Virus record (IMG/VR): IMGVR_UViG_3300002835_001189
Location: 1-22,491 of that record
DNA: 22,491 bases
From: a virus
Reading direction: 5' to 3' (one strand)
The translations under genes were made by a program, and so were the position numbers. Under the pieces are notes generated by a model. It saw nothing but the letters and a program-made list of their open reading frames with translations, made no database searches and was not told where the DNA came from. Positions 1-9,832 of this stretch are shown here, in pieces (positions within the stretch are counted from its first letter, which is position 1; each line of letters starts with the position of its first letter).

Positions 1-12
1 CAAAACTTTAGT

Positions 13-18
13 TGTCAA
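13..18 (-). promoter_or_regulatory. -35 box of a promoter running off the left edge
   Basis: A TTGACA hexamer on the minus strand is preceded by GTAAGG, as at the promoter at 3158-3185. The -10 box would lie outside the window, so this is only half a promoter. By analogy it would drive another small minus-strand gene to the left. Confidence 0.5.
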
Positions 19-80
19 CCTTACAAGTCCCACAGGGTTCGCTGACTAGCCTGACTAGGCCACGTTTCGACCCCATAGGG

Positions 81-308
81 TTAGCTGAGACTAACCGGGG
101 TTGGATTCGACCGATAGTATTTTGCCCACAGCTCATCCATCACAAACTGGACAACACGATCATGAGTACCGCGACAAACGTAGTATCCCATGTGAATGTC
201 GAACAGGGCAAACGATCCATCCTCTTTCGGATGAAACGTGAACCCACACTTGTAGGCATAGCCATTGATGCTACGCTTGACGGTCGAAACTTTCGGAGGC
301 TTTCTCAT
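81..308 (-). CDS. Small hypothetical phage protein (75 aa)
   Basis: Function not recognised. The protein is basic at its N-terminus (MRKPPKVSTVKRS) and continues with an aromatic-rich, probably beta-rich core containing YKCGFTFHPKEDGSFALF. I start it at the ATG at 308 because the sigma70-like promoter at 337-365 puts the transcript start near 330, so in-frame codons further upstream would fall in the promoter. The ATG follows the purine-rich leader shared by this gene set. It is the first gene after double-hairpin element 455-540. A short inverted repeat, GGTTAG/CTAACC, overlaps its stop codon. Confidence 0.78.
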   Translation of the reverse strand: MRKPPKVSTVKRSINGYAYKCGFTFHPKEDGSFALFDIHMGYYVCRGTHDRVVQFVMDELWAKYYRSNPTPVSLS

Positions 309-336
309 TTTCACTTTCTCTCTTTCTTGTCTTACC

Positions 337-365
337 ATTATACATCTATTATCGTCATTTGTCAA
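337..365 (-). promoter_or_regulatory. sigma70-like promoter of gene 81-308
   Basis: Minus strand: TTGACA (365-360), 17-bp spacer, TATAAT (342-337). Both hexamers are consensus. It lies in a 71-bp segment repeated at 951-1021. Confidence 0.85.
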
Positions 366-407
366 TAGGGTAGAACAGAAAAAGTTTCCTTACAATCTCG
401 TAAGGTT
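337..407. repeat. Intergenic cassette repeat, type A copy 1
   Basis: It aligns without gaps to 951-1021 over 71 bp, with about 10 differences by eye. It includes a promoter and the inverted repeat CCTTAC-N6-GTAAGG (388-405). The differences cluster in the promoter spacer and the hairpin loop, leaving the hexamers and stem intact. Confidence 0.8.
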
Positions 408-454
408 CGGATGCCTATATATTGGTCAACATATGCAAACATTTTAATCATTGG

Positions 455-540
455 ACGTAAGTCTATACAACATAAGCACTTACGACACGCCCGGCCCACC
501 CCTCTCACCCTAAGTCCTTATGTGGTAAGGGTTTGTGTCG
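455..540. repeat. Double-hairpin element, copy 1
   Basis: It holds two imperfect stem-loops built on TAAGTnCTTA-like dyads: CGTAAGT...ACTTACG, then UAAGUCCUUA/UAAGGGUUUG with a GUGG-containing loop and G-U pairs. A GC-rich linker (cgcccggcccacccctc) separates them. It begins at the stop codon of gene 543-698 and separates it from the next block. No U-tract follows on either strand, so it is not a standard intrinsic terminator. Confidence 0.75.
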
Positions 541-542
541 AG

Positions 543-698
543 CTATTTGGCTAGGCGATACCTAAACAGCAGTTCAGTAGCAAGGTAGCTGATCAGCAGC
601 TTGTAACCATCCCTCACTTCGGGAATTTTGCAAGTTTCCAGTTTGATCTGAGTATTCCTCAGAAGGTCTTGCATTGTACGGGTGTTCATGTCTTTCAT
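543..698 (-). CDS. Small hypothetical phage protein (51 aa)
   Basis: Function not recognised. The sequence looks wholly alpha-helical (MQDLLRNTQIKLETCK...GYKLLISYLATELLFRYRL), with an amphipathic C-terminal helix. The ATG at 698 is chosen because it follows the shared purine leader and lies just downstream of the promoter at 724-752; longer in-frame readings would begin inside the promoter. An alternative start is the ATG at 689. Second gene of a two-gene block with 749-925, ended by the double-hairpin element 455-540. Confidence 0.75.
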   Translation of the reverse strand: MKDMNTRTMQDLLRNTQIKLETCKIPEVRDGYKLLISYLATELLFRYRLAK

Positions 699-723
699 CT
701 TTCTCTCTCTTTCTTGTGCTGCT

Positions 724-752
724 ATTCTACCAAACTTTTCCGATACTGTCAA
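724..752 (-). promoter_or_regulatory. sigma70-like promoter of gene 543-698
   Basis: Minus strand: TTGACA (752-747), 17-bp spacer, TAGAAT (729-724). The -35 box contains the TGA stop codon of the upstream gene 749-925. Confidence 0.85.
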
Positions 753-925
753 TTCCCCTTTTTTCTGCTAAGAGCAGCATGGCATACGATCTGATCAAGC
801 GTATACCATTCACCATCACCGTATCGGCCGGAAAGCCGAATCTTCAGATTCTTTCCGATGATTTGCTGAACAATACCATATCCGTCAACCACTTGAACCA
901 CATCGCCAACCATGATCTTCTGCAT
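749..925 (-). CDS. Small hypothetical protein with SH3-like/KOW-type pattern (58 aa)
   Basis: The protein reads VGDVVQVVDGYGIVQQIIGKNLKIRLSGRYGDGEWYTLDQIV. Short alternating strands around GD and G-Y/W turns resemble small SH3-like beta-barrels; this is a pattern judgement, not a family assignment. The ATG at 925 follows the conserved purine leader; MVGD at 913 is an alternative start. The stop codon TGA sits inside the -35 box of the next gene's promoter. First gene of its block. Confidence 0.75.
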   Translation of the reverse strand: MQKIMVGDVVQVVDGYGIVQQIIGKNLKIRLSGRYGDGEWYTLDQIVCHAALSRKKGN

Positions 926-950
926 CTCTTTCTCTCTTTCTTGTGCTATG

Positions 951-979
951 ATTATACCACTATTATCGTCCAAAGTCAA
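951..979 (-). promoter_or_regulatory. sigma70-like promoter of gene 749-925
   Basis: Minus strand: TTGACT (979-974), 17-bp spacer, TATAAT (956-951). First promoter of its block. Confidence 0.82.
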
Positions 980-1021
980 TAGGCTAGACCAGAAAAAGTT
1001 TCCTTACAATACCGTAAGGTT
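951..1021. repeat. Intergenic cassette repeat, type A copy 2
   Basis: Partner of 337-407. It contains the same promoter position and the hairpin CCTTAC-N6-GTAAGG at 1002-1019. Confidence 0.8.
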
Positions 1022-1033
1022 TGATGATCACGA

Positions 1034-1050
1034 TTGGCACAGCATTTGCT
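1034..1050 (+). promoter_or_regulatory. sigma54-like (-24/-12) motif upstream of double hairpin 2
   Basis: On the + strand, TTGGCACAGCATTTGCT matches the known RpoN pattern (TGGCAC...N4...TTGCW) with GG-N10-GC spacing. About 12 bases past the GC the predicted start falls at ~1061, at the first base pairs of the double hairpin. An 18-base core is identical at 3519-3536. Whether it is a promoter is inference; it could be another conserved binding site. Confidence 0.4.
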
Positions 1051-1057
1051 ACATGAT

Positions 1058-1142
1058 ACGTAAGTCGTTATCTGACAAGTACTTACGCTTCGCGTGGCGG
1101 GCCGCGTTTGCCCTAAGTGCTTATAGGGTAACGCTTTACGTC
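1058..1142. repeat. Double-hairpin element, copy 2
   Basis: First stem: ACGTAAGTcgtta...caagtACTTACG. Linker cgcgtggcgggccgcg. Second unit: CCCTAAGTGCTTATAGGG, then TAACGCTTTACGTC. It starts about 30 bp beyond the stop of gene 1174-1554 and lies between two gene blocks. Confidence 0.75.
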
Positions 1143-1173
1143 AACTGCTATATTTTTGTGCAGTAGTGTACGT

Positions 1174-1554
1174 TCATTCATCACTTTTGAAGCTGAACGG
1201 ACTGATTTCTTCACCACAAGCAGCAATGGCAGCATACTGTCTGGTCAGTTCTTCGACACGTTCACGCGAACCCGGCTTGCCAACCGGAACGATCATGGTA
1301 TCCTCACCCCCTACATAGCGGGGGTCAGCCTTTTCCTTGCGAACCTTTCCCAGATTCTTCAAAGCAGTACGATTGAACTTGATAACCTTTTCACTCACGA
1401 CATAACGCTTCTGGTCAGTCACGCCGTAGACGTAATCGGTATCTTCTGTGATTCGATCATCTGGGATTTCCACGAGCATCGGCACGGCGATACCCTTGAA
1501 GATCATACGGGCTTGACGCTTGGCATTTTCGATGATGGGGAACTTGGTTTTCAT
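1174..1554 (-). CDS. Hypothetical phage protein (126 aa), Lys/Arg-rich
   Basis: Largest protein of the small-gene module; function not recognised. It starts MKTKFPIIENAKRQARMIFKG and ends in an acidic tail (PFSFKSDE). A middle basic stretch reads KNLGKVRKEKADPRYVGGEDTMIVPVGKPG. The ATG at 1554 is used because the promoter at 1596-1624 makes a start at 1608 impossible on the same transcript. Third gene of the block 2103-1174, followed by double hairpin 1058-1142. Confidence 0.8.
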   Translation of the reverse strand: MKTKFPIIENAKRQARMIFKGIAVPMLVEIPDDRITEDTDYVYGVTDQKRYVVSEKVIKFNRTALKNLGKVRKEKADPRYVGGEDTMIVPVGKPGSRERVEELTRQYAAIAACGEEISPFSFKSDE

Positions 1555-1595
1555 TTTCTTTTTCTCTCTAAGGTCTATCGTTCTCTTGTTCGTGG

Positions 1596-1624
1596 ATTCT
1601 ATCAACAATTCTTTTCTCTATCAA
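1596..1624 (-). promoter_or_regulatory. sigma70-like promoter of gene 1174-1554
   Basis: Minus strand: TTGATA (1624-1619), 17-bp spacer, TAGAAT (1601-1596). The TGA stop of gene 1621-1830 lies inside the -35 box, as at 747-752. Confidence 0.8.
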
Positions 1625-1830
1625 CCCCCATTGTGGGTGGGCCGACGAGTCCAAGGGTGTCCGTAGGCATCGACTGCGGGCGAAAGCTCATGGTCTGCAC
1701 AGTCATGAAGATTTCCACCTTCGGTACGCACTACCCACACATTTCCCTCATCATAGTGATAGGAAACAATCTTTCCAACAATCTGCTTCTCGAATCCCTT
1801 GAGCATCACACTGTCGCCAATCTCGTACAT
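1621..1830 (-). CDS. Small protein with SH3-like/KOW-type pattern (69 aa)
   Basis: MYEIGDSVMLKGFEKQIVGK followed by IVSYHYDEGNVWVVRTEGG resembles the strand-turn pattern of small SH3-like barrels (G-D-x-V, then K-I-V-x-Y, then V-W-V-V-R). There is a short basic tail (TRRPTHNGG). The exact role is unknown. The ATG at 1830 directly follows the leader gagagaaaaga. Its own promoter lies at 1856-1883, and its stop codon is shared with the next promoter. Confidence 0.8.
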   Translation of the reverse strand: MYEIGDSVMLKGFEKQIVGKIVSYHYDEGNVWVVRTEGGNLHDCADHELSPAVDAYGHPWTRRPTHNGG

Positions 1831-1855
1831 TCTTTTCTCTCTTTCTCTTTCTGGT

Positions 1856-1883
1856 ATTCTATCAAAGTTTTTGTGCTTGTCAA
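1856..1883 (-). promoter_or_regulatory. sigma70-like promoter of gene 1621-1830
   Basis: Minus strand: TTGACA (1883-1878), 16-bp spacer, TAGAAT (1861-1856). A small GC stem (CCCC...GGGG, 1885-1899) separates it from the preceding stop codon. Confidence 0.82.
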
Positions 1884-1899
1884 TCCCCTCTAACGGGGG

Positions 1900-2103
1900 T
1901 CACATTCTCCATTCCACAAACTTGAGAACACACACCTTTCCAGGATACTTTGCATCGATATACTTCTGTGCAGTAGTCTTGCTATTGTCTGTAGCAGAGC
2001 AACACTGAACAATCGTACCGTCGATTGAAACGCTCCAAATCCTACGCTTCCGAATCTTGGGAAGCGAACCAATGAAACCATTCACACTCATAACCTTTTC
2101 CAT
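1900..2103 (-). CDS. Small hypothetical phage protein (67 aa)
   Basis: It starts MEKVMSVNGFIGSLPKIRKR, then IWSVSIDGTIVQCCSATDN and AAQKYIDAKYPGKVCVLKFV-like sequence: strand, loop, helix, strand. Function not recognised. The ATG at 2103 follows the purine leader; the ATG at 2091 (preceded by ggaaaagg) is possible. First gene of its block, with a TATAAT-class promoter. Confidence 0.75.
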   Translation of the reverse strand: MEKVMSVNGFIGSLPKIRKRRIWSVSIDGTIVQCCSATDNSKTTAQKYIDAKYPGKVCVLKFVEWRM

Positions 2104-2145
2104 TTTCAACTCTCTCTTTCTTTCTTCTCTATCTCTTATATCGAC

Positions 2146-2174
2146 ATTATACCATGCTCATCTTGAGCTTTCAA
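2146..2174 (-). promoter_or_regulatory. sigma70-like promoter of gene 1900-2103
   Basis: Minus strand: TTGAAA (2174-2169) inside CTTGAAAG, 17-bp spacer, TATAAT (2151-2146). Block-first promoter with an off-consensus -35 and a consensus -10. Confidence 0.82.
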
Positions 2175-2238
2175 GCTAAATCCAGAAATTTTTGTGTCAA
2201 GAGATTTTGACAAAACTTTTCTCGATTTTGTTGAGTTT

Positions 2239-2254
2239 TGGTACAACATTTGCT
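2239..2254 (+). promoter_or_regulatory. GG-N10-GC (sigma54-like) motif upstream of double hairpin 3
   Basis: TTGGTACAACATTTGCTA keeps the GG-N10-GC spacing, with changes from the copies at 1034 and 3519. The predicted start, 12 bases beyond the GC (~2265), again falls at the first hairpin. Weaker match to RpoN consensus. Confidence 0.3.
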
Positions 2255-2260
2255 AAGTTG

Positions 2261-2345
2261 TCGTAAAGTCTTATATGGTAAGCACTTACGTCAAATCCGT
2301 CCCGCCCCGCTCGTCGTAAGTCTTTACGAGCTAAGGGCTTACGTC
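2261..2345. repeat. Double-hairpin element, copy 3
   Basis: This is the clearest copy. First stem: CGTAA-agt-CTTA, loop tatgg, TAAG-cac-TTACG. Linker aaatccgtcccgccccgctcg. Second stem: CGTAAGtctTTA...TAAGggCTTACG. The alternative short stem TCGTAA-gtct-TTACGA is also possible. The stop codon of gene 2339-2527 (TAA) is part of the second stem. Confidence 0.8.
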
Positions 2346-2527
2346 GGACTCAGCTCATATAGTGAACAGTTGTATACGTTACCATCCTCATCCTGTACGG
2401 ATGCCCACGCATTTGCCGTACCATATACAGCATCCGCAAGCACGCCCATGAACGAACGTACAGTAACAACCTTAGAGCCGTGCATCACGGTTTGCCCATA
2501 TCGAGGAGTATTTTCTACAGTGAACAT
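2339..2527 (-). CDS. Small hypothetical phage protein (62 aa)
   Basis: MFTVENTPRYGQTVMHGSKV, then a beta-rich stretch ending NVYNCSLYELSPT. The 'ELSP' ending resembles DHELSP in gene 1621-1830, suggesting a shared fold or origin, though this is only a short match. It has a good ribosome site (AAAGGA, minus strand) and no promoter of its own. It lies 14 bp after gene 2542-2859 and is the last gene of a five-gene block. Its stop overlaps double hairpin 3. Confidence 0.78.
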   Translation of the reverse strand: MFTVENTPRYGQTVMHGSKVVTVRSFMGVLADAVYGTANAWASVQDEDGNVYNCSLYELSPT

Positions 2528-2541
2528 TTGTTTTCCTTTGT

Positions 2542-2859
2542 TTAGTAGATAAGATTCATATCGGCTACAACCATACCATCTTCATACTCTAGGCCACTTT
2601 CCAGATACCACTCTCCCTTGCGTTGATATACACGCACGGGCGAATACTGGTTGATTCTATCCTTAGTGGTGGCACTATACCATCCACCAGTGTTGAGCGT
2701 AGCACTATTGTCAGGATGAATCTTTACTACATAGGTACTATGCAGCATAATCCCTACGCTACCATCAGGAAGAATTTCCGCATAGGTATTGTTGCCTACC
2801 TTGCGAGTATCCTTATTAGTCTTACCACGAACCAATTTCACTGCTTCAGAGTGTGTCAT
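2542..2859 (-). CDS. Conserved phage protein of the 'TTKDRIN' type (105 aa)
   Basis: The sequence has the pattern NNTYAEILPDGSVGIMLHST, VVKIHPDNSATLNTGGW, TTKDRINQYSP and VYQRKGEWYL. I recall this arrangement (hydrophobic strand, proline-Asp turn, LNTGGW, TTKDRIN, W-Y) from many small uncharacterised phage proteins, especially of environmental and actinobacterial phages. No biochemical role is known to me. It starts one base after the stop of the membrane-protein gene 2861-3013 and is followed 14 bp later by 2339-2527, so it is translated from the transcript begun at 3158-3185. Confidence 0.88.
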   Translation of the reverse strand: MTHSEAVKLVRGKTNKDTRKVGNNTYAEILPDGSVGIMLHSTYVVKIHPDNSATLNTGGWYSATTKDRINQYSPVRVYQRKGEWYLESGLEYEDGMVVADMNLIY

Positions 2860-2860
2860 A

Positions 2861-3013
2861 TTACATTATCCAAACGTATAGAGGAAGAAAAACAAACAGG
2901 AAAGCCCAACTACCAAACAGCAAAGCCAAGATACCTAATCCAGAAACTATTCCGAAAGTATCGATAGTCTCAGGATTCTCTCCCAACAGATTATAGCAAA
3001 TCCACTTTTTCAT
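2861..3013 (-). CDS. Tiny membrane protein (50 aa)
   Basis: The hydrophilic N-terminus is MKKWICYNLLGENPETIDTF. It is followed by a long hydrophobic segment from about residue 22 to 49 (GIVSGLGILALLFGSWAFLF...), which would span the membrane once, perhaps twice as a hairpin. The start ATG overlaps the stop of the upstream gene as TGATG, and the next gene begins one base after its TAA. This coupling strongly supports it as real despite its size. Function unknown; lysis-related or host-membrane roles are possible. Confidence 0.75.
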   Translation of the reverse strand: MKKWICYNLLGENPETIDTFGIVSGLGILALLFGSWAFLFVFLPLYVWIM

Positions 3014-3132
3014 CAGTCGTTCTCATGCAGAATGGAGTGAACAGCGTTACTTACCTCGTGAACAGTGTACGAGATGAAACCGGCAAAAGCAATCAAGGCA
3101 AACAGCTGAACGTATTCGATAGGCGTAATCAT
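3013..3132 (-). CDS. Tiny membrane protein (39 aa)
   Basis: MITPIEYVQLFALIAFAGFI is followed by a short polar tail rich in His (SYTVHEVSNAVHSILHEND). One membrane segment spans about residues 7-24. It is preceded by the leader agaaagagagaaccta and by its own promoter at 3158-3185. Its TGA overlaps the ATG of the 50-aa membrane protein, so the two are very likely translated together. It is the first gene of the four-gene transcript ending at 2339. Confidence 0.75.
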   Translation of the reverse strand: MITPIEYVQLFALIAFAGFISYTVHEVSNAVHSILHEND

Positions 3133-3157
3133 TAGGTTCTCTCTTTCTTGTGTTTGT

Positions 3158-3185
3158 ATTCTAGCAAGTTTTCTTGTGGTGTCAA
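3158..3185 (-). promoter_or_regulatory. sigma70-like promoter of the membrane-protein operon
   Basis: Minus strand: TTGACA (3185-3180), 16-bp spacer, TAGAAT (3163-3158). The -35 overlaps the right arm of the 8-bp hairpin 3184-3205. Confidence 0.84.
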
Positions 3186-3205
3186 CCTTACAATGTCGTA
3201 AGGTT
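3184..3205. repeat. Inverted repeat AACCTTAC-N6-GTAAGGTT
   Basis: A perfect 8-bp stem with a 6-base loop lies exactly between the stop codon of gene 3205-3390 and the -35 box of the next promoter. The same stem (6 bp) recurs at 388-405 and 1002-1019, and a decayed form near 19-38. It could be an operator or an RNA end structure; no U-tract follows. Confidence 0.75.
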
Positions 3206-3390
3206 CACTTTTTCTGTCCGATGGTCATCCAGCCATCATTGACGGCTTTGATGGTAAACTTTGCATGGTCGATCATGCGAGAATCAGTGAACGTAGTACC
3301 ATTCCTGTACACACGTACAATCTCGATTTCCTTGCCAATCACATGGTAATCGGCATACACACCACCAACAGCTATCATCATCGTTTGCAT
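3205..3390 (-). CDS. Small hypothetical phage protein (61 aa)
   Basis: MQTMMIAVGGVYADYHVIGK, then EIEIVRVYRNGTTFTDSRM and a C-terminus KAVNDGWMTIGQKK. This is a beta-rich pattern reminiscent of genes 749-925 and 1621-1830. Function not recognised. The ATG at 3390 is selected because the promoter at 3427-3455 excludes the upstream in-frame ATG at 3468. First gene of its block. Confidence 0.78.
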   Translation of the reverse strand: MQTMMIAVGGVYADYHVIGKEIEIVRVYRNGTTFTDSRMIDHAKFTIKAVNDGWMTIGQKK

Positions 3391-3426
3391 CTTTGTCTCT
3401 CTTTCTCTCTTACTTCTTATATCGAC

Positions 3427-3455
3427 ATTATACCCTCTCACACTTGAGCTTGCAA
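3427..3455 (-). promoter_or_regulatory. sigma70-like promoter of gene 3205-3390
   Basis: Minus strand: TTGCAA (3455-3450) within the palindrome CTTGCAAG, 17-bp spacer, TATAAT (3432-3427). Confidence 0.82.
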
Positions 3456-3518
3456 GAGAAAAATCCAAATTTTTATGTCAAGAAATTTTGACAAAACTTT
3501 TCTGAATTTTGAGTACGA

Positions 3519-3536
3519 TTGGCACAGCATTTGCTA
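3519..3536 (+). promoter_or_regulatory. sigma54-like (-24/-12) motif upstream of double hairpin 4
   Basis: TTGGCACAGCATTTGCTA is identical to the copy at 1034. GG (3521-3522) and GC (3533-3534) are 10 bases apart. The predicted start (~3546) lies at the first hairpin bases (ATAAGTGCTTA). Confidence 0.4.
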
Positions 3537-3540
3537 ATGA

Positions 3541-3626
3541 GTCATAAGTGCTTATCTGTCAGGTACTTACGTCAAGCCCGGCCCGCCCGCCTAGCCCTAA
3601 GTACTTATAGGGCAGGGGTTTACGTC
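3541..3626. repeat. Double-hairpin element, copy 4
   Basis: First stem AAGUGCUU/AGGUACUU: eight pairs with two G-U, loop aucuguc. Linker aagcccggcccgcccgcc. Second unit GCCCTA-N8-TAGGGC nested with TAAGTACTTA. The last bases overlap the stop codon of gene 3625-3840. Confidence 0.78.
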
Positions 3627-3840
3627 ATGAGGCGTGAATGAACACCGTTTCGCTTACTGTACGGTTGGTCACCGTCACAATCCACTTCTTTCCGCTACCA
3701 TCCTCACGCATGATGCCATTGATAAGACCCACATGGGCGTTACCCCTTGGATCGATCACACAGTGATACTTACCAGTTCGCATAGCAGCGAAAATCTTGT
3801 CAAGGTTGTTCATCACAGTTTTGTAGTTGGTCTGAAGCAT
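3625..3840 (-). CDS. Small hypothetical phage protein (71 aa)
   Basis: It has a helical N-terminus (MLQTNYKTVMNNLDKIFAAM) followed by a strand-rich part (KYHCVIDPRGNAHVGLING, KKWIVTVTNRTVSETVF). The N-terminal motif LDKIFAAMR resembles LDKVMAAVR in gene 4573-4821, hinting at related small proteins. Function not recognised. A good SD (AGAGGA) precedes the ATG. Second gene of a two-gene block with 3900-4145. Confidence 0.8.
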   Translation of the reverse strand: MLQTNYKTVMNNLDKIFAAMRTGKYHCVIDPRGNAHVGLINGIMREDGSGKKWIVTVTNRTVSETVFIHAS

Positions 3841-3864
3841 CTTTTTTCCTCTTGTGTTGATTCT

Positions 3865-3893
3865 ATTCTACCGTTTTGCTCTTACATTGTCAA
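3865..3893 (-). promoter_or_regulatory. sigma70-like promoter of gene 3625-3840
   Basis: Minus strand: TTGACA (3893-3888), 17-bp spacer, TAGAAT (3870-3865). It starts 6 bp past the stop codon of gene 3900-4145. Confidence 0.85.
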
Positions 3894-3899
3894 TACTGT

Positions 3900-4145
3900 T
3901 CAGAAGTATACGCTAGAATTAATGATCTTTCCGGTTTCATCGATTTCCATCGATTCGCCTTCACCCATATCGTATTCTTCCATATATCCAAAATACTCGC
4001 AAGAAGGCCACCAATCCTTACGGGCATTCTCCGCATGATTGCGAAGCATATCGAACAACTCGCCCGAAGCGTAGTGTCCGTCCAGATTCTCGGGCTGGTT
4101 GTCTTGGATATAGTCTAAAACTTCTTGCATCGTATTGAAGATCAT
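3900..4145 (-). CDS. Small acidic hypothetical protein (81 aa)
   Basis: Strongly acidic: the C-terminal half includes EYFGYMEEYDMGEGESMEID. The N-terminus (MQEVLDYIQDNQPENL, HYASGELFDMLRNHAEN) looks helical. Such charge is common among phage proteins that bind host proteins or mimic DNA, but nothing here proves that. SD AAGGA and the ATG at 4145 fit well. First gene of its block. Confidence 0.82.
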   Translation of the reverse strand: MIFNTMQEVLDYIQDNQPENLDGHYASGELFDMLRNHAENARKDWWPSCEYFGYMEEYDMGEGESMEIDETGKIINSSVYF

Positions 4146-4172
4146 TTTCTTATCCTTTTCTTCTTTCGTTTT

Positions 4173-4256
4173 CTCTTGTGTTCTTATTATACAGTATTTA
4201 TCGACGCTTTCAAGAGAAATCTTTGGAATTTTTGAAATATAATTTCATGCCAAACA
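4173..4256. repeat. Intergenic cassette repeat, type C copy 1
   Basis: It matches 5156-5239: CTCTTGTG, ATTATACAGTATTTATCG, CAAGAGAAATCTTTGGA and TTTCATGCCAAACA occur in the same order and spacing. It spans the leader, promoter and upstream sequence. Confidence 0.8.
4186..4213 (-). promoter_or_regulatory. sigma70-like promoter of gene 3900-4145
   Basis: Minus strand: TTGAAA (4213-4208), 16-bp spacer, TATAAT (4191-4186). Block-first promoter. Confidence 0.82.
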
Positions 4257-4273
4257 AAATCTTTTTTATATTT

Positions 4274-4359
4274 GTTGTAAGTCTATACGTGGCAAGTACT
4301 TATGTCGAATTCGGCCCGCCCGGCAAATCGTAAGTGCTTACCTCATAAGGCTTTACGTC
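4274..4359. repeat. Double-hairpin element, copy 5
   Basis: First unit GTAAGTctata...caagtACTTAt. Linker gaattcggcccgcccggcaa. Second stem GTAAG-tg-CTTA, loop ccuca, TAAG-gc-TTTAC. It abuts the TAA of gene 4360-4509. No GG-N10-GC motif is visible before this copy. Confidence 0.75.
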
Positions 4360-4509
4360 TTATAGAATCGTACCATCGCCACGAATGCGATACATGATAC
4401 CCCCGATACTGTACAGGCTTATACCCTCTCCCATGTGCTGTACAAATGTAGCAGAATAACCGTGTCGAGCAACTAGGCGGCGAATCGTGTGCTGTACTTG
4501 AATGGTCAT
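4360..4509 (-). CDS. Small hypothetical protein (49 aa)
   Basis: MTIQVQHTIRRLVARHGYSA, then TFVQHMGEGISLYSIGGIMY and RIRGDGTIL. It has a basic helical start and a short beta-hairpin-like end. Function not recognised. Support: a dedicated promoter at 4534-4563, a strong SD (AGAGGGAA), codon use like its neighbours, and a stop codon flush with double hairpin 5, as for other block-final genes. Confidence 0.78.
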   Translation of the reverse strand: MTIQVQHTIRRLVARHGYSATFVQHMGEGISLYSIGGIMYRIRGDGTIL

Positions 4510-4533
4510 CGTATTCCCTCTTGTGTTGATTCT

Positions 4534-4563
4534 ATTATAGCTTATCGTCTACGATGCTGTCAA
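4534..4563 (-). promoter_or_regulatory. sigma70-like promoter of gene 4360-4509
   Basis: Minus strand: TTGACA (4563-4558), 18-bp spacer, TATAAT (4539-4534). Both hexamers are consensus. Confidence 0.85.
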
Positions 4564-4572
4564 TAGATGAAT

Positions 4573-4821
4573 TTAAAATTCCCCATCGTCAAGGCCCGGA
4601 ATATAGTCAGCCTCATCCGCACAAGCTTCACACACCATGTCATAGTAGAGGGCGTTTACGTTGTTCAGAATCTGATTCTCTGAACGAATCCACACACCGT
4701 CATGGATCATGTCTTTCGGCTCAATTTTGAACGATGCTCCTGCTTGAATCACTCGCACCTTATGCGAATCCTTGCCAAAAATCTGTCGAACAGCAGCCAT
4801 CACCTTGTCGAGCGTAATCAT
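4573..4821 (-). CDS. Small acidic hypothetical protein (82 aa)
   Basis: It begins MITLDKVMAAVRQIFGKDSH, a helix, then VRVIQAGASFKIEPKDMI (strands), and ends in an acidic tail (DEADYIPGLDDGEF). Function not recognised. The ATG at 4821 follows a purine leader with AAAAGGAAAAG. Middle gene of a three-gene block; all three have separate promoters. Confidence 0.82.
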   Translation of the reverse strand: MITLDKVMAAVRQIFGKDSHKVRVIQAGASFKIEPKDMIHDGVWIRSENQILNNVNALYYDMVCEACADEADYIPGLDDGEF

Positions 4822-4851
4822 TTTCTTTTCCTTTTCTCTTGTGTTGGCTCT

Positions 4852-4881
4852 ATTATACAGTATCGGCTATTCCGTTGTCAA
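4852..4881 (-). promoter_or_regulatory. sigma70-like promoter of gene 4573-4821
   Basis: Minus strand: TTGACA (4881-4876), 18-bp spacer, TATAAT (4857-4852). Confidence 0.85.
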
Positions 4882-4885
4882 TACC

Positions 4886-5128
4886 TTAGTAGTAAAGAAA
4901 ATCTCGCACAACCTCACCATCACGAGCAACCTCGATATACTCTCCCTCGTCACCCATCGGGAAAAAGTATTCGATATATCCGGTAACATCGTTAGCAATA
5001 TCGCTAGCAAGAGCCTCAGCGAGCAACTCTCCACCGATACGAGCAACACCCACCAAAGTATCGGGGCTGGTCGAATCAGCACCATAGAGAAAGTTTTCGA
5101 GTTCGTTGCGGTTGTTGATGGTGATCAT
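4886..5128 (-). CDS. Small acidic hypothetical protein (80 aa)
   Basis: MITINNRNELENFLYGADST, a helical LVGVARIGGELLAEALASDI region, then an acidic stretch (FFPMGDEGEYIEVARDGEVV). Function not recognised; overall acidic like 3900-4145. The ATG at 5128 (SD AGAGGA) is preferred to a longer reading from 5191, which would start inside the promoter at 5169-5196. First gene of its block. Confidence 0.8.
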   Translation of the reverse strand: MITINNRNELENFLYGADSTSPDTLVGVARIGGELLAEALASDIANDVTGYIEYFFPMGDEGEYIEVARDGEVVRDFLYY

Positions 5129-5155
5129 TTTCTTGTCCTCTTGTTGTCTCTTGTT

Positions 5156-5239
5156 CTCTTGTGCTTTCATTATACAGTATTTATCGGCCATTGCAAGAGA
5201 AATCTTTGGATTTTTTCGAATATATTTTCATGCCAAACA
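5156..5239. repeat. Intergenic cassette repeat, type C copy 2
   Basis: Partner of 4173-4256; promoter hexamers and the distal TTTCATGCCAAACA block are conserved. Confidence 0.8.
5169..5196 (-). promoter_or_regulatory. sigma70-like promoter of gene 4886-5128
   Basis: Minus strand: TTGCAA (5196-5191), 16-bp spacer, TATAAT (5174-5169). First promoter of the whole small-gene array as read on the minus strand. Confidence 0.82.
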
Positions 5240-5257
5240 TAAAAATTCTTCAAATTA

Positions 5258-5350
5258 GCCATAACCCTATACTACACAAGCACTTACATCAAATTTTGCC
5301 CACTAGTATCGTCGTAAGTGCCTATGCCATATAGAGTTAGGGGGTTTTTT
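5258..5350. repeat. Double-hairpin element, copy 6 (degenerate)
   Basis: The left part CTATACTACACAAGCACTTAC matches copy 1, and GTCGTAAGTG matches copies 3 and 5, but base pairing is largely lost and the linker is AT-rich. It ends in GGGGGTTTTTT on the + strand. It does not follow a gene end, unlike the others. With the terminator at 5381-5418 it fills the otherwise gene-free stretch 5129-5451, together with the cassette repeat. Confidence 0.6.
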
Positions 5351-5380
5351 CGTTTCGGCTTGACAGTTGGTAGTTTAGGT

Positions 5381-5418
5381 AAAAAACTCGGGGAGGTGCA
5401 AACACAATAGGCACCCCC
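5381..5418 (-). terminator. Intrinsic terminator after gene 5452-5733
   Basis: Read on the minus strand, a GC-rich stem (GGTGCC.../...GCACCtCCCC, with one mismatch and a ~11-base loop) is followed after 'gag' by TTTTTT. It ends the AT-rich minus-strand region and insulates it from the small-gene array. Confidence 0.72.
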
Positions 5419-5451
5419 ATAGAATTAATTAGCCAGTTTATTAGCCATTTA

Positions 5452-5733
5452 TTAATATCTTACTGGCACATAAACCGTTTGAGGTACCGACACCACCTCA
5501 GTTTTTTTTAAAAGAGTCCAGCACCTACGTTCAACCAGAACATTTTGATACAATGTCACAGGAACATACTGTGGAGCCACAGGCACCATAGTTACCATTG
5601 GAACATAATAATATGGAACTACCGGAGCTTGTTGAATCACTACCGGAGCTTGATAAACATAAGGCATCCACTCACCACCATGAGCACTAACTCCTGCAAC
5701 ACTCATCAACAATCCCGCTAATAGCTTTTTCAT
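5452..5733 (-). CDS. Secreted Val/Pro/Tyr-rich protein (93 aa)
   Basis: A clear Sec-type signal peptide comes first (MKKLLAGLLMSVAGVSA, probable cut after A17). The mature part is nearly repetitive: QAPVVIQQAPVVPYYYVP, then MVPVAPQYVPV and VPQTVYVPVRY, with one basic Cys-containing segment (VERRCWTLLKK). There is no enzyme motif. Low-complexity Y/P/V-rich secreted proteins occur in many bacteria, including Planctomycetes, so this may be a host-derived cargo gene; that is inference. SD TAGGA precedes the ATG, and a terminator follows at 5381-5418. Confidence 0.8.
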   Translation of the reverse strand: MKKLLAGLLMSVAGVSAHGGEWMPYVYQAPVVIQQAPVVPYYYVPMVTMVPVAPQYVPVTLYQNVLVERRCWTLLKKTEVVSVPQTVYVPVRY

Positions 5734-5808
5734 AAATTTTCCTACGAGTTAAAAATAAATTGACCAGTTTCCCGCTACTAGAGATATCGACAGATTGTTG
5801 TTGAAACT

Positions 5809-6738
5809 TTAGTAGTCTTTACAACACACGGATAAATAGTAATCTATCGTATTCCTCAATCCAGTATCAAAATTTGTTTTAGCTTCCCAATCCAACAGAC
5901 TTTTCGCCCTAGAAACATCAAGAAATCTTCGAGGTTGTCCATCTGGCTTATTAGAATCCCACTGAATAATTCCTTTATATCCAACCATATCCTTAATTTT
6001 ATACACAAGATCACTTATACTAATTTCAAACCCACTCCCCAAATTAATAGGATCAGGATCGTTTATTTTTTCCAAAGCCTTAATTATTCCAGATGAAGCA
6101 TCTTCAACATATAAAAACTCCCTTGTAGCATTGCCCGATCCCCAACATTGTATACTTGATAAATTATCTCTCTTAGCCACAACCAACTTCTTAATCAAAG
6201 CCGGAATAACATGACTCTTATCATCATCAAAACTATCATTTGGCCCATATAAATTAGTTGGTATAACCACACAACCATTTAGATCATATTGAGCCTTATA
6301 ACTCTGCATCATGACCATAATGCTCTTTTTTGCTATTCCATATGGAGCATTAGTTTCTTCTGGATATCCGTTCCAAATGTCGTCTTCTTTAAAAGGGGCC
6401 GGACAAAACTTAGGATAACAACAAACCGTACTAACAAACACAAACTTTTTAATATTCATCAACCGAGCATGTTCCACCAAATTAATTCCCATACTAATAT
6501 TATTATAGAAGAACCTTCCAGGATTGACCATATTCGCCCCTATACCTCCAACATCAGCAGCCAAATGAAGAATAACATCCGGAGATATTCTTTTTAGATA
6601 GGATCCTGTTTGTTCAAAATTGGTCAAATCACAATCGGCTTTTCTAACAACAACAATATCTTGATATCCTTGGGACAATAGCTTCTTAACTACATTTTGT
6701 CCTAAAAATCCCGCTCCTCCAGTAACTAATATTTTCAT
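5809..6738 (-). CDS. fcl: GDP-L-fucose synthase (epimerase/reductase)
   Basis: Extended short-chain dehydrogenase (309 aa, about the family length of 310-320). It is expected to convert GDP-4-keto-6-deoxy-mannose to GDP-L-fucose with NADPH. Visible motifs: Rossmann TGGAGFLG (G7, G10, G13), catalytic S103 in VSTVCCYPK, and Y133/K137 in APYGIAKK. The family signature PTNLYGPNDSFDDDKSHVIP is present, followed by WGSG...REFLYVED. The partner enzyme Gmd lies at 8837-9832 on the other strand. Upstream (6739-6843) lie a terminator-like hairpin and a TATAAT box. The ATG at 6738 is the only start that includes the nucleotide-binding motif. Confidence 0.95.
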   Translation of the reverse strand: MKILVTGGAGFLGQNVVKKLLSQGYQDIVVVRKADCDLTNFEQTGSYLKRISPDVILHLAADVGGIGANMVNPGRFFYNNISMGINLVEHARLMNIKKFVFVSTVCCYPKFCPAPFKEDDIWNGYPEETNAPYGIAKKSIMVMMQSYKAQYDLNGCVVIPTNLYGPNDSFDDDKSHVIPALIKKLVVAKRDNLSSIQCWGSGNATREFLYVEDASSGIIKALEKINDPDPINLGSGFEISISDLVYKIKDMVGYKGIIQWDSNKPDGQPRRFLDVSRAKSLLDWEAKTNFDTGLRNTIDYYLSVCCKDY

Positions 6739-6767
6739 AGATGATTCTTTATGTGGGTTTGGCCTAT

Positions 6768-6809
6768 TTAATATAAAAGGAGCAAGCTTAACTAAATAAA
6801 CTTACTCCT
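6768..6809 (-). terminator. Terminator-like hairpin between 6844-7095 and fcl
   Basis: On the minus strand AGGAGUAAGUUUA pairs with UAAGCUUGCUCCU (13 pairs, two G-U; 6809-6778, loop uuuagu), followed by TTTTATATT. The G-U pairs form only in the minus-strand RNA, supporting that orientation. Confidence 0.65.
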
Positions 6810-6815
6810 ATTATA
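6810..6815 (-). promoter_or_regulatory. Possible -10 box for fcl
   Basis: A TATAAT abuts the terminator hairpin. The -35 candidate at 17 bp (TTCTTA) is poor. If used, the transcript would begin within the hairpin, so this may be a regulated leader or chance. Confidence 0.25.
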
Positions 6816-6843
6816 CGGTATTAAATTTTAATTAAGAACTACT

Positions 6844-7095
6844 TCAAGTGGTTGTCTGTTCTGTTGAAACAGTACCAACAACATTCTGCACAACAGGAGA
6901 ACTCTTTGACTTATTTGGTCGTCCTCTTGGCTTACTTAGCCTAAGTTTGCGTCGTTGACGACGAATCATAGCCATAGTAATATTTTGGCTGGTAATTTGG
7001 CTAAGCTTAACAGCTAGCTCTTCATCAGGGATAGAGGTATGATTATTGCGAATATAGTCAATTTCGCTATCTGTCCACTTTTTATAATTTCCCAT
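6844..7095 (-). CDS. Small DNA-binding protein, SANT/HTH-like with AT-hook-like tail (83 aa)
   Basis: The N-terminus KKWTDSEIDYIRNNHTSIPD, then EELAVKLSQI...NITMAMIRRQRRKLRL, has the tri-helical look of Myb/SANT-like or HTH domains that many phage regulators share. It is followed by a basic segment with an AT-hook-like core, KPRGRPNKSK, and a Thr-rich tail. The protein at 8013-8840 has a similar N-terminus. SD AAAGGAG precedes the ATG. It is divergent from the sigma-factor operon, with a perfect 14-bp palindrome between them. A role as regulator of that promoter is inference. Confidence 0.82.
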   Translation of the reverse strand: MGNYKKWTDSEIDYIRNNHTSIPDEELAVKLSQITSQNITMAMIRRQRRKLRLSKPRGRPNKSKSSPVVQNVVGTVSTEQTTT

Positions 7096-8052: not shown

Positions 8053-8840
8053 GTTTAGACGAAGAAAAATTTATTCGAGATAATGTAACTAAGATGTCCA
8101 TGGAAGACATAGCAGAAAATCTCAATAGAAATACTGCTCCAATTAAACGATATATTAATGAAAACCAACTATTAATAACGGATGAAGATAAAAGCAGTAA
8201 TGAATTTTTAAGATATAAACTGTATAGCAAAACCTTTTGGGGAGAAATTAAAAGACAATTTGATGAAGATACTGGCGAATTAAAATATTTTGAAGATACA
8301 TGGATTGGCCTAATAAAACAATTTAGAGAAGACGTTTTACCAGCTGAAGAACTACAGATCAAACAATTTATTACAATTGATATTCTTATTAATCGAAGTA
8401 TGAAAGAGCGCAAAAGACATATCGCAGAAACTGAAAAACTTCAAAAACAGGTTGATAAAGAATATGAGAGACCTGAATCAGAACGAGATATTCCTAAACT
8501 GGCTAATCTTGAGACACAACTTTCGTTCGCACGTAACAGTATCGCTAATTACACTAATGAATATACCAAGCTCCTTAATGAACAGCAAAAAATTAGCAAA
8601 GATCTTAAAGCAACAAGAGAGCAAAGAATCAAACGAATAGAAGACGGTAAGAGCTCTTGGACAGGATTAATACGAATGCTAGAAGATGAACAGATCAGAG
8701 AGAAAGAAGGACGAGAGATGGAAATTTTAAACATGGCTACAGAGAAGACCATGAAACAACTTAGTTCTTTACATACATTCCAGGATAATACTGTAGACAG
8801 ACCATTTTTAACCCCAGAAACAGTAGAGGAAGATTCATGA
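8013..8840 (+). CDS. HTH and coiled-coil protein, possible terminase small subunit (275 aa)
   Basis: The N-terminus (residues ~8-50: GQLSLDEEKFIRDNVTKMSM, EDIAENLNRNTAPIKRYI) is a HTH-like DNA-binding domain similar to that of 6844-7095. The middle and C-terminal parts are long charged helices, including KRHIAETEKLQKQVDKEYER, consistent with a coiled coil. HTH plus coiled coil is the usual plan of small terminase subunits, and TerL lies in the same operon three genes on; still an inference. GTG start at 8013 with GGAG eight bases upstream, overlapping the sigma gene by 40 bases. It ends in ATGA overlap with gmd. Confidence 0.72.
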   Translation: MEKPSAPRKRGQLSLDEEKFIRDNVTKMSMEDIAENLNRNTAPIKRYINENQLLITDEDKSSNEFLRYKLYSKTFWGEIKRQFDEDTGELKYFEDTWIGLIKQFREDVLPAEELQIKQFITIDILINRSMKERKRHIAETEKLQKQVDKEYERPESERDIPKLANLETQLSFARNSIANYTNEYTKLLNEQQKISKDLKATREQRIKRIEDGKSSWTGLIRMLEDEQIREKEGREMEILNMATEKTMKQLSSLHTFQDNTVDRPFLTPETVEEDS

Positions 8841-9832
8841 CTAAAACTGCTCTAATAACAGGAATCACAGGACAAGATGGATCATACTTAGCAGAACTTT
8901 TACTTCAAAAAGACTATACAGTAGTAGGCTTATATAGAAGAACTAGTATTGATCATTTTGACAGAATTAAACATTTAGGCCAAAACCCTAACTTAACATT
9001 AGAAGAATTCGATTTAACAGATCCCTCGAATGTAATTAATACTATAGACAAATATCAACCAGATGAATTCTATAATTTAGCTGCACAAAGTCATGTTGAA
9101 ACTAGTTTTCGACAGCCAACCACAACTTTTGAAATTGACACTATAGGTGTTATTAATATTTTAGAGGCTATTCGACACTATTCGTCTTCTACAAAATTCT
9201 ATCAAGCTAGTACTAGTGAGATGTTTGGTCGTAATTTTAGTACTTGTCCAGATACTAATATTAAATATCAGGATGAAAATACTGAGCTTTTACCTCAAAG
9301 TCCATACGGAGTGGCAAAAGTAGCTAGTCATCGCATGGTACAAATTTATCGAGATGGTTATGGTTTATTTGCTACTAGCGGAATTTTATTTAATCATGAA
9401 AGTCCACGACGAGGCGAAAACTTTGTTACTCGTAAAATAACTAAGTATATCGGCAATTTAGTTAATAATGGGTACTCAGAAAATTTAAAACTAGGAAATC
9501 TTAGGGCCCAACGAGATTGGGGACATGCTAAGGATTATGTTAGAGCAATGTGGCTAATGTTACAGCAGGATGTTGCTGATGACTTTGTTATTTGTACCGG
9601 TCAAACTTGGAGTGTACTAGACTTTGTTAGAACCTCATTTGAATATGTTAATTTGGATTATACAAAATATTTAGAAATTGATCCATCTTTATGTCGTCCA
9701 GCCGAAGTTGATTATTTAAGAGGACGTAATACCAAAGCGCATAACATATTGAACTGGTCACCAGAAATAGACTTTAATACTCTTATTAAAGATATGGTAG
9801 ATCATGATATAGGAACAGTATCTAATGTCTAG
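8837..9832 (+). CDS. gmd: GDP-mannose 4,6-dehydratase
   Basis: Full-length SDR enzyme (331 aa) that converts GDP-mannose to GDP-4-keto-6-deoxy-mannose, the substrate of the Fcl encoded at 5809-6738. Motifs: GITGQDG (G9, G12, G15), YNLAAQSHVETSF, ASTSEMFG, catalytic Y157/K161 in SPYGVAK, and the Gmd signature NHESPRRGENFVTRKI followed by QRDWGHAKDYV. It is embedded between a packaging-type gene and an HNH gene, with overlaps on both sides (4 and 8 bases), so it is co-expressed with the head operon. It has no visible truncation. Confidence 0.96.
   Translation: MTKTALITGITGQDGSYLAELLLQKDYTVVGLYRRTSIDHFDRIKHLGQNPNLTLEEFDLTDPSNVINTIDKYQPDEFYNLAAQSHVETSFRQPTTTFEIDTIGVINILEAIRHYSSSTKFYQASTSEMFGRNFSTCPDTNIKYQDENTELLPQSPYGVAKVASHRMVQIYRDGYGLFATSGILFNHESPRRGENFVTRKITKYIGNLVNNGYSENLKLGNLRAQRDWGHAKDYVRAMWLMLQQDVADDFVICTGQTWSVLDFVRTSFEYVNLDYTKYLEIDPSLCRPAEVDYLRGRNTKAHNILNWSPEIDFNTLIKDMVDHDIGTVSNV

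Follow-up and report, generated by a model that had tools for sequence, protein, structure and literature searches.

How new genes enter the control of a phage is an open question, and it bears on large uncultivated phages, in which small, swappable genes of unknown function form long arrays. One such array lies in a 22,491-nucleotide stretch of viral DNA (IMG/VR record IMGVR_UViG_3300002835_001189, positions 1 to 22,491; hereafter the window), where six related elements of ~85 bp punctuate positions 455-5350. What do these elements do? An earlier note on this DNA, which had located all six, described them as double hairpins and offered four options for their role: elements that process or stabilize RNA, + strand small RNAs, block insulators, or multi-dyad protein sites. 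The best explanation, to which we give a probability of about 0.7, is that the element works as double-stranded DNA and has four positions at which one inferred DNA-binding protein, dimeric or oligomeric, would dock. It would act as a cooperative multi-dimer operator or enhancer for a phage regulator, class I-like in its geometry and joined to a mobile promoter cassette resembling the promoter-early stem-loops (PeSLs).

Every gene within positions 1-7095 of the window is encoded on the minus strand, and most have a near-consensus sigma-70 promoter. The order is the stop codon of one gene, the element, then the promoter of the next gene. A profile of 409 distinct relatives recovered the six copies, listed here on the + strand, at the expected places. 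Copy 1 (455-540; 66 bits) contains four sites at 456-467, 473-484, 509-520 and 526-537, which we call a1 to a4 and which point forward, backward, forward and backward, respectively. The corresponding sites are 1059-1070, 1076-1087, 1112-1123 and 1129-1140 in copy 2 (1058-1142; 63 bits); 2262-2273, 2279-2290, 2315-2326 and 2332-2343 in copy 3 (2261-2345; 70 bits); 3543-3554, 3560-3571, 3596-3607 and 3613-3624 in copy 4 (3541-3626; 64 bits); and 4276-4287, 4293-4304, 4329-4340 and 4346-4357 in copy 5 (4274-4359; 62 bits). Copy 6 (5258-5350; 34 bits) is degenerate and closes the array. The gap between the inner arms is constant across all copies in the window, and a 22-base version of the layout has two exact matches in the window, in copies 2 and 3, and none in 100 shuffled sequences. 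The proposed placement at stop codons held in general: copy 3 includes the stop codon of the minus-strand gene 2339-2527, copy 4 overlaps that of gene 3625-3840 and copy 5 adjoins that of gene 4360-4509. Copy 2 lies 31 bp from its stop codon, and copy 6 has no small gene directly upstream. Copy 6 can also form a single long, near-complete hairpin (minus-strand fold z = -6.1) and ends on the + strand in the T-run GGGGGTTTTTT; it resembles a terminator for antisense transcripts, and a comparable copy occurs in locus L095.

The element is widespread in uncultivated phages. Pattern scans of IMG/VR phage contigs yielded more than 700 relatives, which is a lower bound. The first scan gave at least 637 non-overlapping copies (482 full-length, 409 distinct), and 585 copies with both flanks were collected later. 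Two further patterns yielded additional loci, and 174 previously unseen copies were added. Large phages carry ~6-18 strict copies each (26 of 30 records had a match), clustered at ~1-kb spacing in the records with listed positions. The terminase of the window's phage group was present in 27 of the 29 records examined, and terminase relatives of the 22-kb window record include contigs of up to 244 kb. The closest cultured terminase relatives are those of the Bacillus phages Stahl and Slash (~25% identity), the major capsid protein is closest to that of Bacillus phage G (23%), and a DNA-level search for cultured relatives found none.

Alignment of these relatives, which required no internal gaps, revealed a rigid four-dyad architecture. 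Four AA-N4-TT motifs separated by gaps of 7, 30 and 7 occur 424 times, compared with at most 12 occurrences for any other gap length, and the four sites alternate in orientation as in copy 1. The half-site, similar to GACGTAAGTCCTTA, is conserved. The GC-rich linker is fixed in length and free in sequence; the linker motif GGCCCGCCC that had been attributed to all six elements is exact in only two. Dyad centres lie 15 bp apart within a pair and 53 bp, or five turns, from pair to pair, giving a fixed block of 82 bp. In each of four loci (L288, L312, L314 and L318), two matches to the second unit share one orientation and are offset by 52-53 bp, suggesting that direct repetition at five helical turns relates the two units.

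The element is also coupled to a promoter on one side. When promoters were called at a sigma-70 match of at least 10/12, a promoter reading away from the a1 end was found in 423 of 585 copies, one reading away from the other end in 61 and one reading towards the element in 12. Distances from the element edge to the -35 box peak at 18, 28-29 and 39-40 bp with gaps between them, that is, one turn of DNA apart. We fixed this prediction before fetching new loci and kept only copies whose element and flanks were both unseen. Of the 53 distances no greater than 45 bp in these held-out copies, 44 matched one of the 13 predicted positions and 7 a predicted gap; additional peaks were seen at 49-51 and 59-63 bp. 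Expressed relative to the predicted transcription start, the centre of the outer dyad lies at about -60.5, -71 and -82. It is within 1.6 bp of -61, -71.5 or -82 in 216 cases and near the half-turn positions -66.5 or -77 in 25. CRP activates from -61.5, -71.5/-72.5 and -81.5/-82.5 and hardly at all from -66.5 or -76.5 (PMC6301791), so the outer dyads of the element occupy the same start-relative positions as these class I activator sites and show the same half-turn loss. The element differs from them in that a fixed 82-bp block holds four dyads rather than a single one, that the promoters served are near consensus, that the contact with polymerase is putative, and that four of the six window copies stand farther upstream. 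Together with the rigid spacing and the conserved half-site, the helical phasing favours the multi-dyad protein site among the options of the earlier note.

Could the element instead act as RNA? Folding after each stop codon, it might end transcripts or protect them, like the stem-loop half of a PeSL. Its position directly after stop codons fits such a role, as do folds that on both strands are somewhat better than those of shuffled sequences (z ~ -2), and T-runs within 8 nt of the element are found in 17% of copies on the promoter side and 12% on the other side compared with 4% in background. However, sense and antisense strands fold equally well, and the arrangement of an intrinsic terminator, in which a U-tract comes after the stem as read in the direction of the gene, is not the rule, with more than 80% of copies lacking a U-tract. 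The stems had been thought to keep pairing through paired changes. In 58 diverse copies, 75.1% of cells in the two-hairpin model were paired compared with 75.6% in shuffled alignments, and the covariation score was 0.135 compared with 0.144. Watson-Crick pairs were no commoner in this model than column composition predicts (409-568 distinct copies), and among 127 registers its unit-1 register lay at the negative extreme of Watson-Crick excess (568 copies). The covariation beyond DNA palindromy on which the RNA reading depended was thus not seen, and on these tests we rejected a two-hairpin RNA. A single long hairpin spanning the whole element ranked first among the registers in raw Watson-Crick excess, but most of it disappeared after control for G+C/A+T composition, which is symmetric, and its pair count was equalled in 43 of 500 shuffles; we regard it as a weak signal that is largely base composition. 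A three-base periodicity in mutual information proved to be merely the decay of local correlation. The alternative short hairpins noticed earlier are each confined to single copies, and an Rfam search of the window returned no match to a described family. Promoters aimed into the element from the promoter side are, at 12 of 585 copies, too rare to favour small RNAs from the + strand. Since RNA folding would also leave both the fixed spacer lengths and the helical phasing with the next promoter unexplained, we consider a terminator or processing hairpin unlikely. The pairing potential of the element arises because four copies of one near-palindromic DNA site alternate in orientation. An apparent conserved hairpin can therefore be a protein-DNA array viewed from one strand, and helical-phase statistics on metagenomic contigs can help to separate the two.

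A protein-bound element might chiefly halt transcription of the upstream gene and so insulate the blocks. The element sits where a terminator would be, many copies occur per phage in one region, and the repressors of Cluster A mycobacteriophages halt elongation at ~30 scattered stoperators, which are likewise many oriented binding sites between phage genes (PMC6550527), those of the element being putative. Stoperators are, however, single 13-bp sites that lie mostly off promoters (PMC6550527), whereas the element is a four-site block with a promoter on one side and in phase with it. A roadblock would not by itself need such phasing, and we judge it quite unlikely as the main function.

The phasing itself might be a relic of a few ancestral spacers, given that many copies have related flanks. 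When spacers were sorted into 164 groups of less than 60% identity, R(10.5) was 0.45, whereas none of 2000 jittered sets exceeded 0.23, and the 18, 28-29 and 39-40 bp classes each contained several such groups. Inverted promoters on the other side of the element also peak at 28-30 bp, and spacer shifts of 10-11 bp occur within clusters of 90% identity. These observations make descent alone an improbable source of the periodicity.

Several results nevertheless weigh against the phased operator. There is some relatedness by descent among spacers and among copies, and when they were clustered at 80% or 75% identity the periodicity lost significance because most promoters then fall into one cluster; this loss of power leaves common descent some room. 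Stop-codon distance, the intended negative control, was not clean (R(10.5) = 0.29). The window copies belong to the long-spacer class, and four of the six lie 79-90 bp from the -35 box. Only two are clearly in phase: copy 5, with its outer dyad centre at about -103.5 from promoter 4186-4213 (-) (TTGAAA-16-TATAAT), and copy 6, at about -104.5 from promoter 5169-5196 (-) (TTGCAA-16-TATAAT). Copy 1 (centre at about -132.5; promoter 337-365 (-), TTGACA-17-TATAAT) and copy 2 (about -121.5; 951-979 (-), TTGACT-17-TATAAT) are ~2 bp off phase, and copies 3 and 4, both at about -129.5 from promoters 2146-2174 (-) (TTGAAA-17-TATAAT) and 3427-3455 (-) (TTGCAA-17-TATAAT), are out of phase. Perfect -35 boxes occur in 57% of element-bearing and 63% of element-less promoters; the element-bearing promoters are near consensus and do not clearly differ from the others in strength, and activation is therefore not evident. 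Finally, the binder is a candidate, and its binding and regulatory effect are deduced from the arrangement of the sites.

Weak -35 boxes, hinted at by the window as a sign of activation, failed in the comparison of 554 with 947 promoters. Where the element is within 34 bp of the promoter, the -35 box is mostly perfect and the -10 box imperfect; where it is more than 75 bp away, the -10 box is mostly perfect and the -35 box imperfect.

Under the operator model, four dimers of one protein, most likely phage-encoded, would bind the TAAGTNCTTA-type dyads in two pairs, and the rigid nucleoprotein block so formed would sit between a small gene's end and the next promoter. The promoter-nearest dyad lies on the face of the helix from which a class I regulator can contact RNA polymerase (centres near -60.5, -71, -82, -92.5 and -103), and by virtue of this placement the bound protein may adjust the sigma-70 promoter, upwards or downwards. 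The block may also stop read-through from the preceding gene, and the block insulation proposed earlier keeps a conceivable part in the model. A more speculative extension, which we offer tentatively, is that a dedicated regulator assembles on the elements at 10-20 promoters, each enhancer-like block both insulating and phasing polymerase, so as to form a modular regulon suited to gene exchange. If so, a gene captured beside an element and its promoter would fall under phage control at once.

The borders of the blocks are consistent with such exchange. As many as 449 pairs of copies have one flank in common, at 80% identity or more, while their other flanks are unrelated. Homology to the window ends within 12 bp of the stop-side edge in 48 instances (11.9 expected), a fourfold excess, and at the promoter-side edge in 16 (11.9 expected); this accumulation at the stop-side edge indicates that the element and its downstream promoter move together. 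The sister phage G026, with a 98% identical terminase, aligns to window positions 925-2345 and resumes at 2540-2862, so that one window gene is absent from G026 and the junction coincides with the edge of copy 3 (2345). The halves of the element tend each to follow their own flank, and the inferred crossovers are spread across it, too widely for site-specific crossover. Element and promoter thus appear to form an exchangeable cassette end, the breakpoints being observed and the recombination mechanism presumed from them. Hundreds of natural variants, phased by whole turns with near-consensus promoters, would make the portable cassette of element and promoter a testable answer to how new genes come under control.

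Integron attC sites resemble the element: they too are imperfect inverted repeats, and they mark the 3' ends of gene cassettes. That the element is an attC-like site at which a recombinase shuffles cassettes is nevertheless scarcely plausible, even with breaks at its stop-side edge and the one-gene difference from G026, given that crossovers show no single point, each block has its own promoter, phasing with promoters is unexpected, attC relies on a folded single strand whereas the element has neither pair covariation nor a conserved fold, and no recombinase turned up among the selected proteins scanned against Pfam, with no systematic search made.

Among known systems the closest are the PeSLs of T4-type phages, reportedly described by Arbiol in 2010 and Comeau in 2014 (as named in PMC4503421), in which a stem-loop terminator and an early sigma-70 promoter are said to lie between nonessential genes. 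Both are regulatory cassettes in many copies that join a structure after the gene end to a sigma-70 promoter (423 of 585 copies here), and both mark boundaries of modular gene shuffling. In contrast to PeSLs, the element consists of four rigid, promoter-phased DNA dyads without pair covariation or a regular U-tract, and, with a terminase at ~25% identity to those of Stahl and Slash, its phages are not T4-like. It has the coupled promoter and the role in shuffling in common with PeSLs but belongs to a different group of phages, and we therefore do not call it a PeSL. The SPBRE of phage SPbeta, a 15-bp motif at about ten promoters bound by the master regulator MrpR (PMC10516654), is likewise a repeated intergenic element at phage promoters with one regulator, which for our element is predicted; described as a 15-bp motif, it is set apart by its architecture and probably by its sequence.

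Our best lead for the binder, which genome context and predicted features suggest, is the 83-amino-acid product of window gene 6844-7095 (-), a three-helix protein with an AT-hook that is conserved across the phage group (71 distinct homologues in contigs of the group). Its structure model comprises three helices with a predicted local distance difference test (pLDDT) score above 90. Among 48 family members, 23 matched AT_hook (E <= 0.1) and 22 matched phrog_323 ('transcriptional regulator, D5-like'), and the product of a neighbouring gene resembles sigma-70 region 2, with a score under the Pfam cut-off. It is possibly this protein that would serve as the dedicated regulator considered above. 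A fold search with it gave only insignificant matches, the best being the small terminase of phage G20C, and it may therefore serve packaging or other DNA work instead.

Other putative sites accompany the elements. A second dyad, CCTTAC-N6-GTAAGG, lies on the minus strand between copy 1 and its -35 box (388-405), between copy 2 and its -35 box (1002-1019), and touching the -35 box of a promoter without an element (3186-3203). In the fetched loci it occurred 112 times with N6, 13 times with N3 and never with the other loop lengths tested, with AAA.TTTT then following. Its distance to the -35 box also runs in helical-turn steps (0, 9-11 and 19-23). The motif TGGYAC-N5-TTGC is located at 1035, 2239 and 3520 (+ strand) and ends ~11 bp before copies 2-4. 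It looks like a textbook sigma-54 promoter, an assignment we rejected since the three matches share a duplicated flank, are not family-wide and are inverted in some relatives; it is probably another protein's site.

With regard to hosts, one pattern match in GTDB genomes, in SAR11, was a chance match inside an aminopeptidase gene, and profile matches at L200, L201 and L203 are on short contigs of metagenome-assembled genomes (L204 had no match). A phage-contig protein in record G030 (L211:3352-4461) combines N_methyl and SBP_bac_10 (DUF1559) domains. These domains are typical of Planctomycetota, and the protein thus hints at Planctomycetes as hosts. In the window, genes 5809-6738 (-) and 8837-9832 (+), which adjoin the head genes, encode proteins that by sequence appearance are NAD-sugar epimerase/dehydratase-like and resemble GDP-fucose synthase and GDP-mannose dehydratase.

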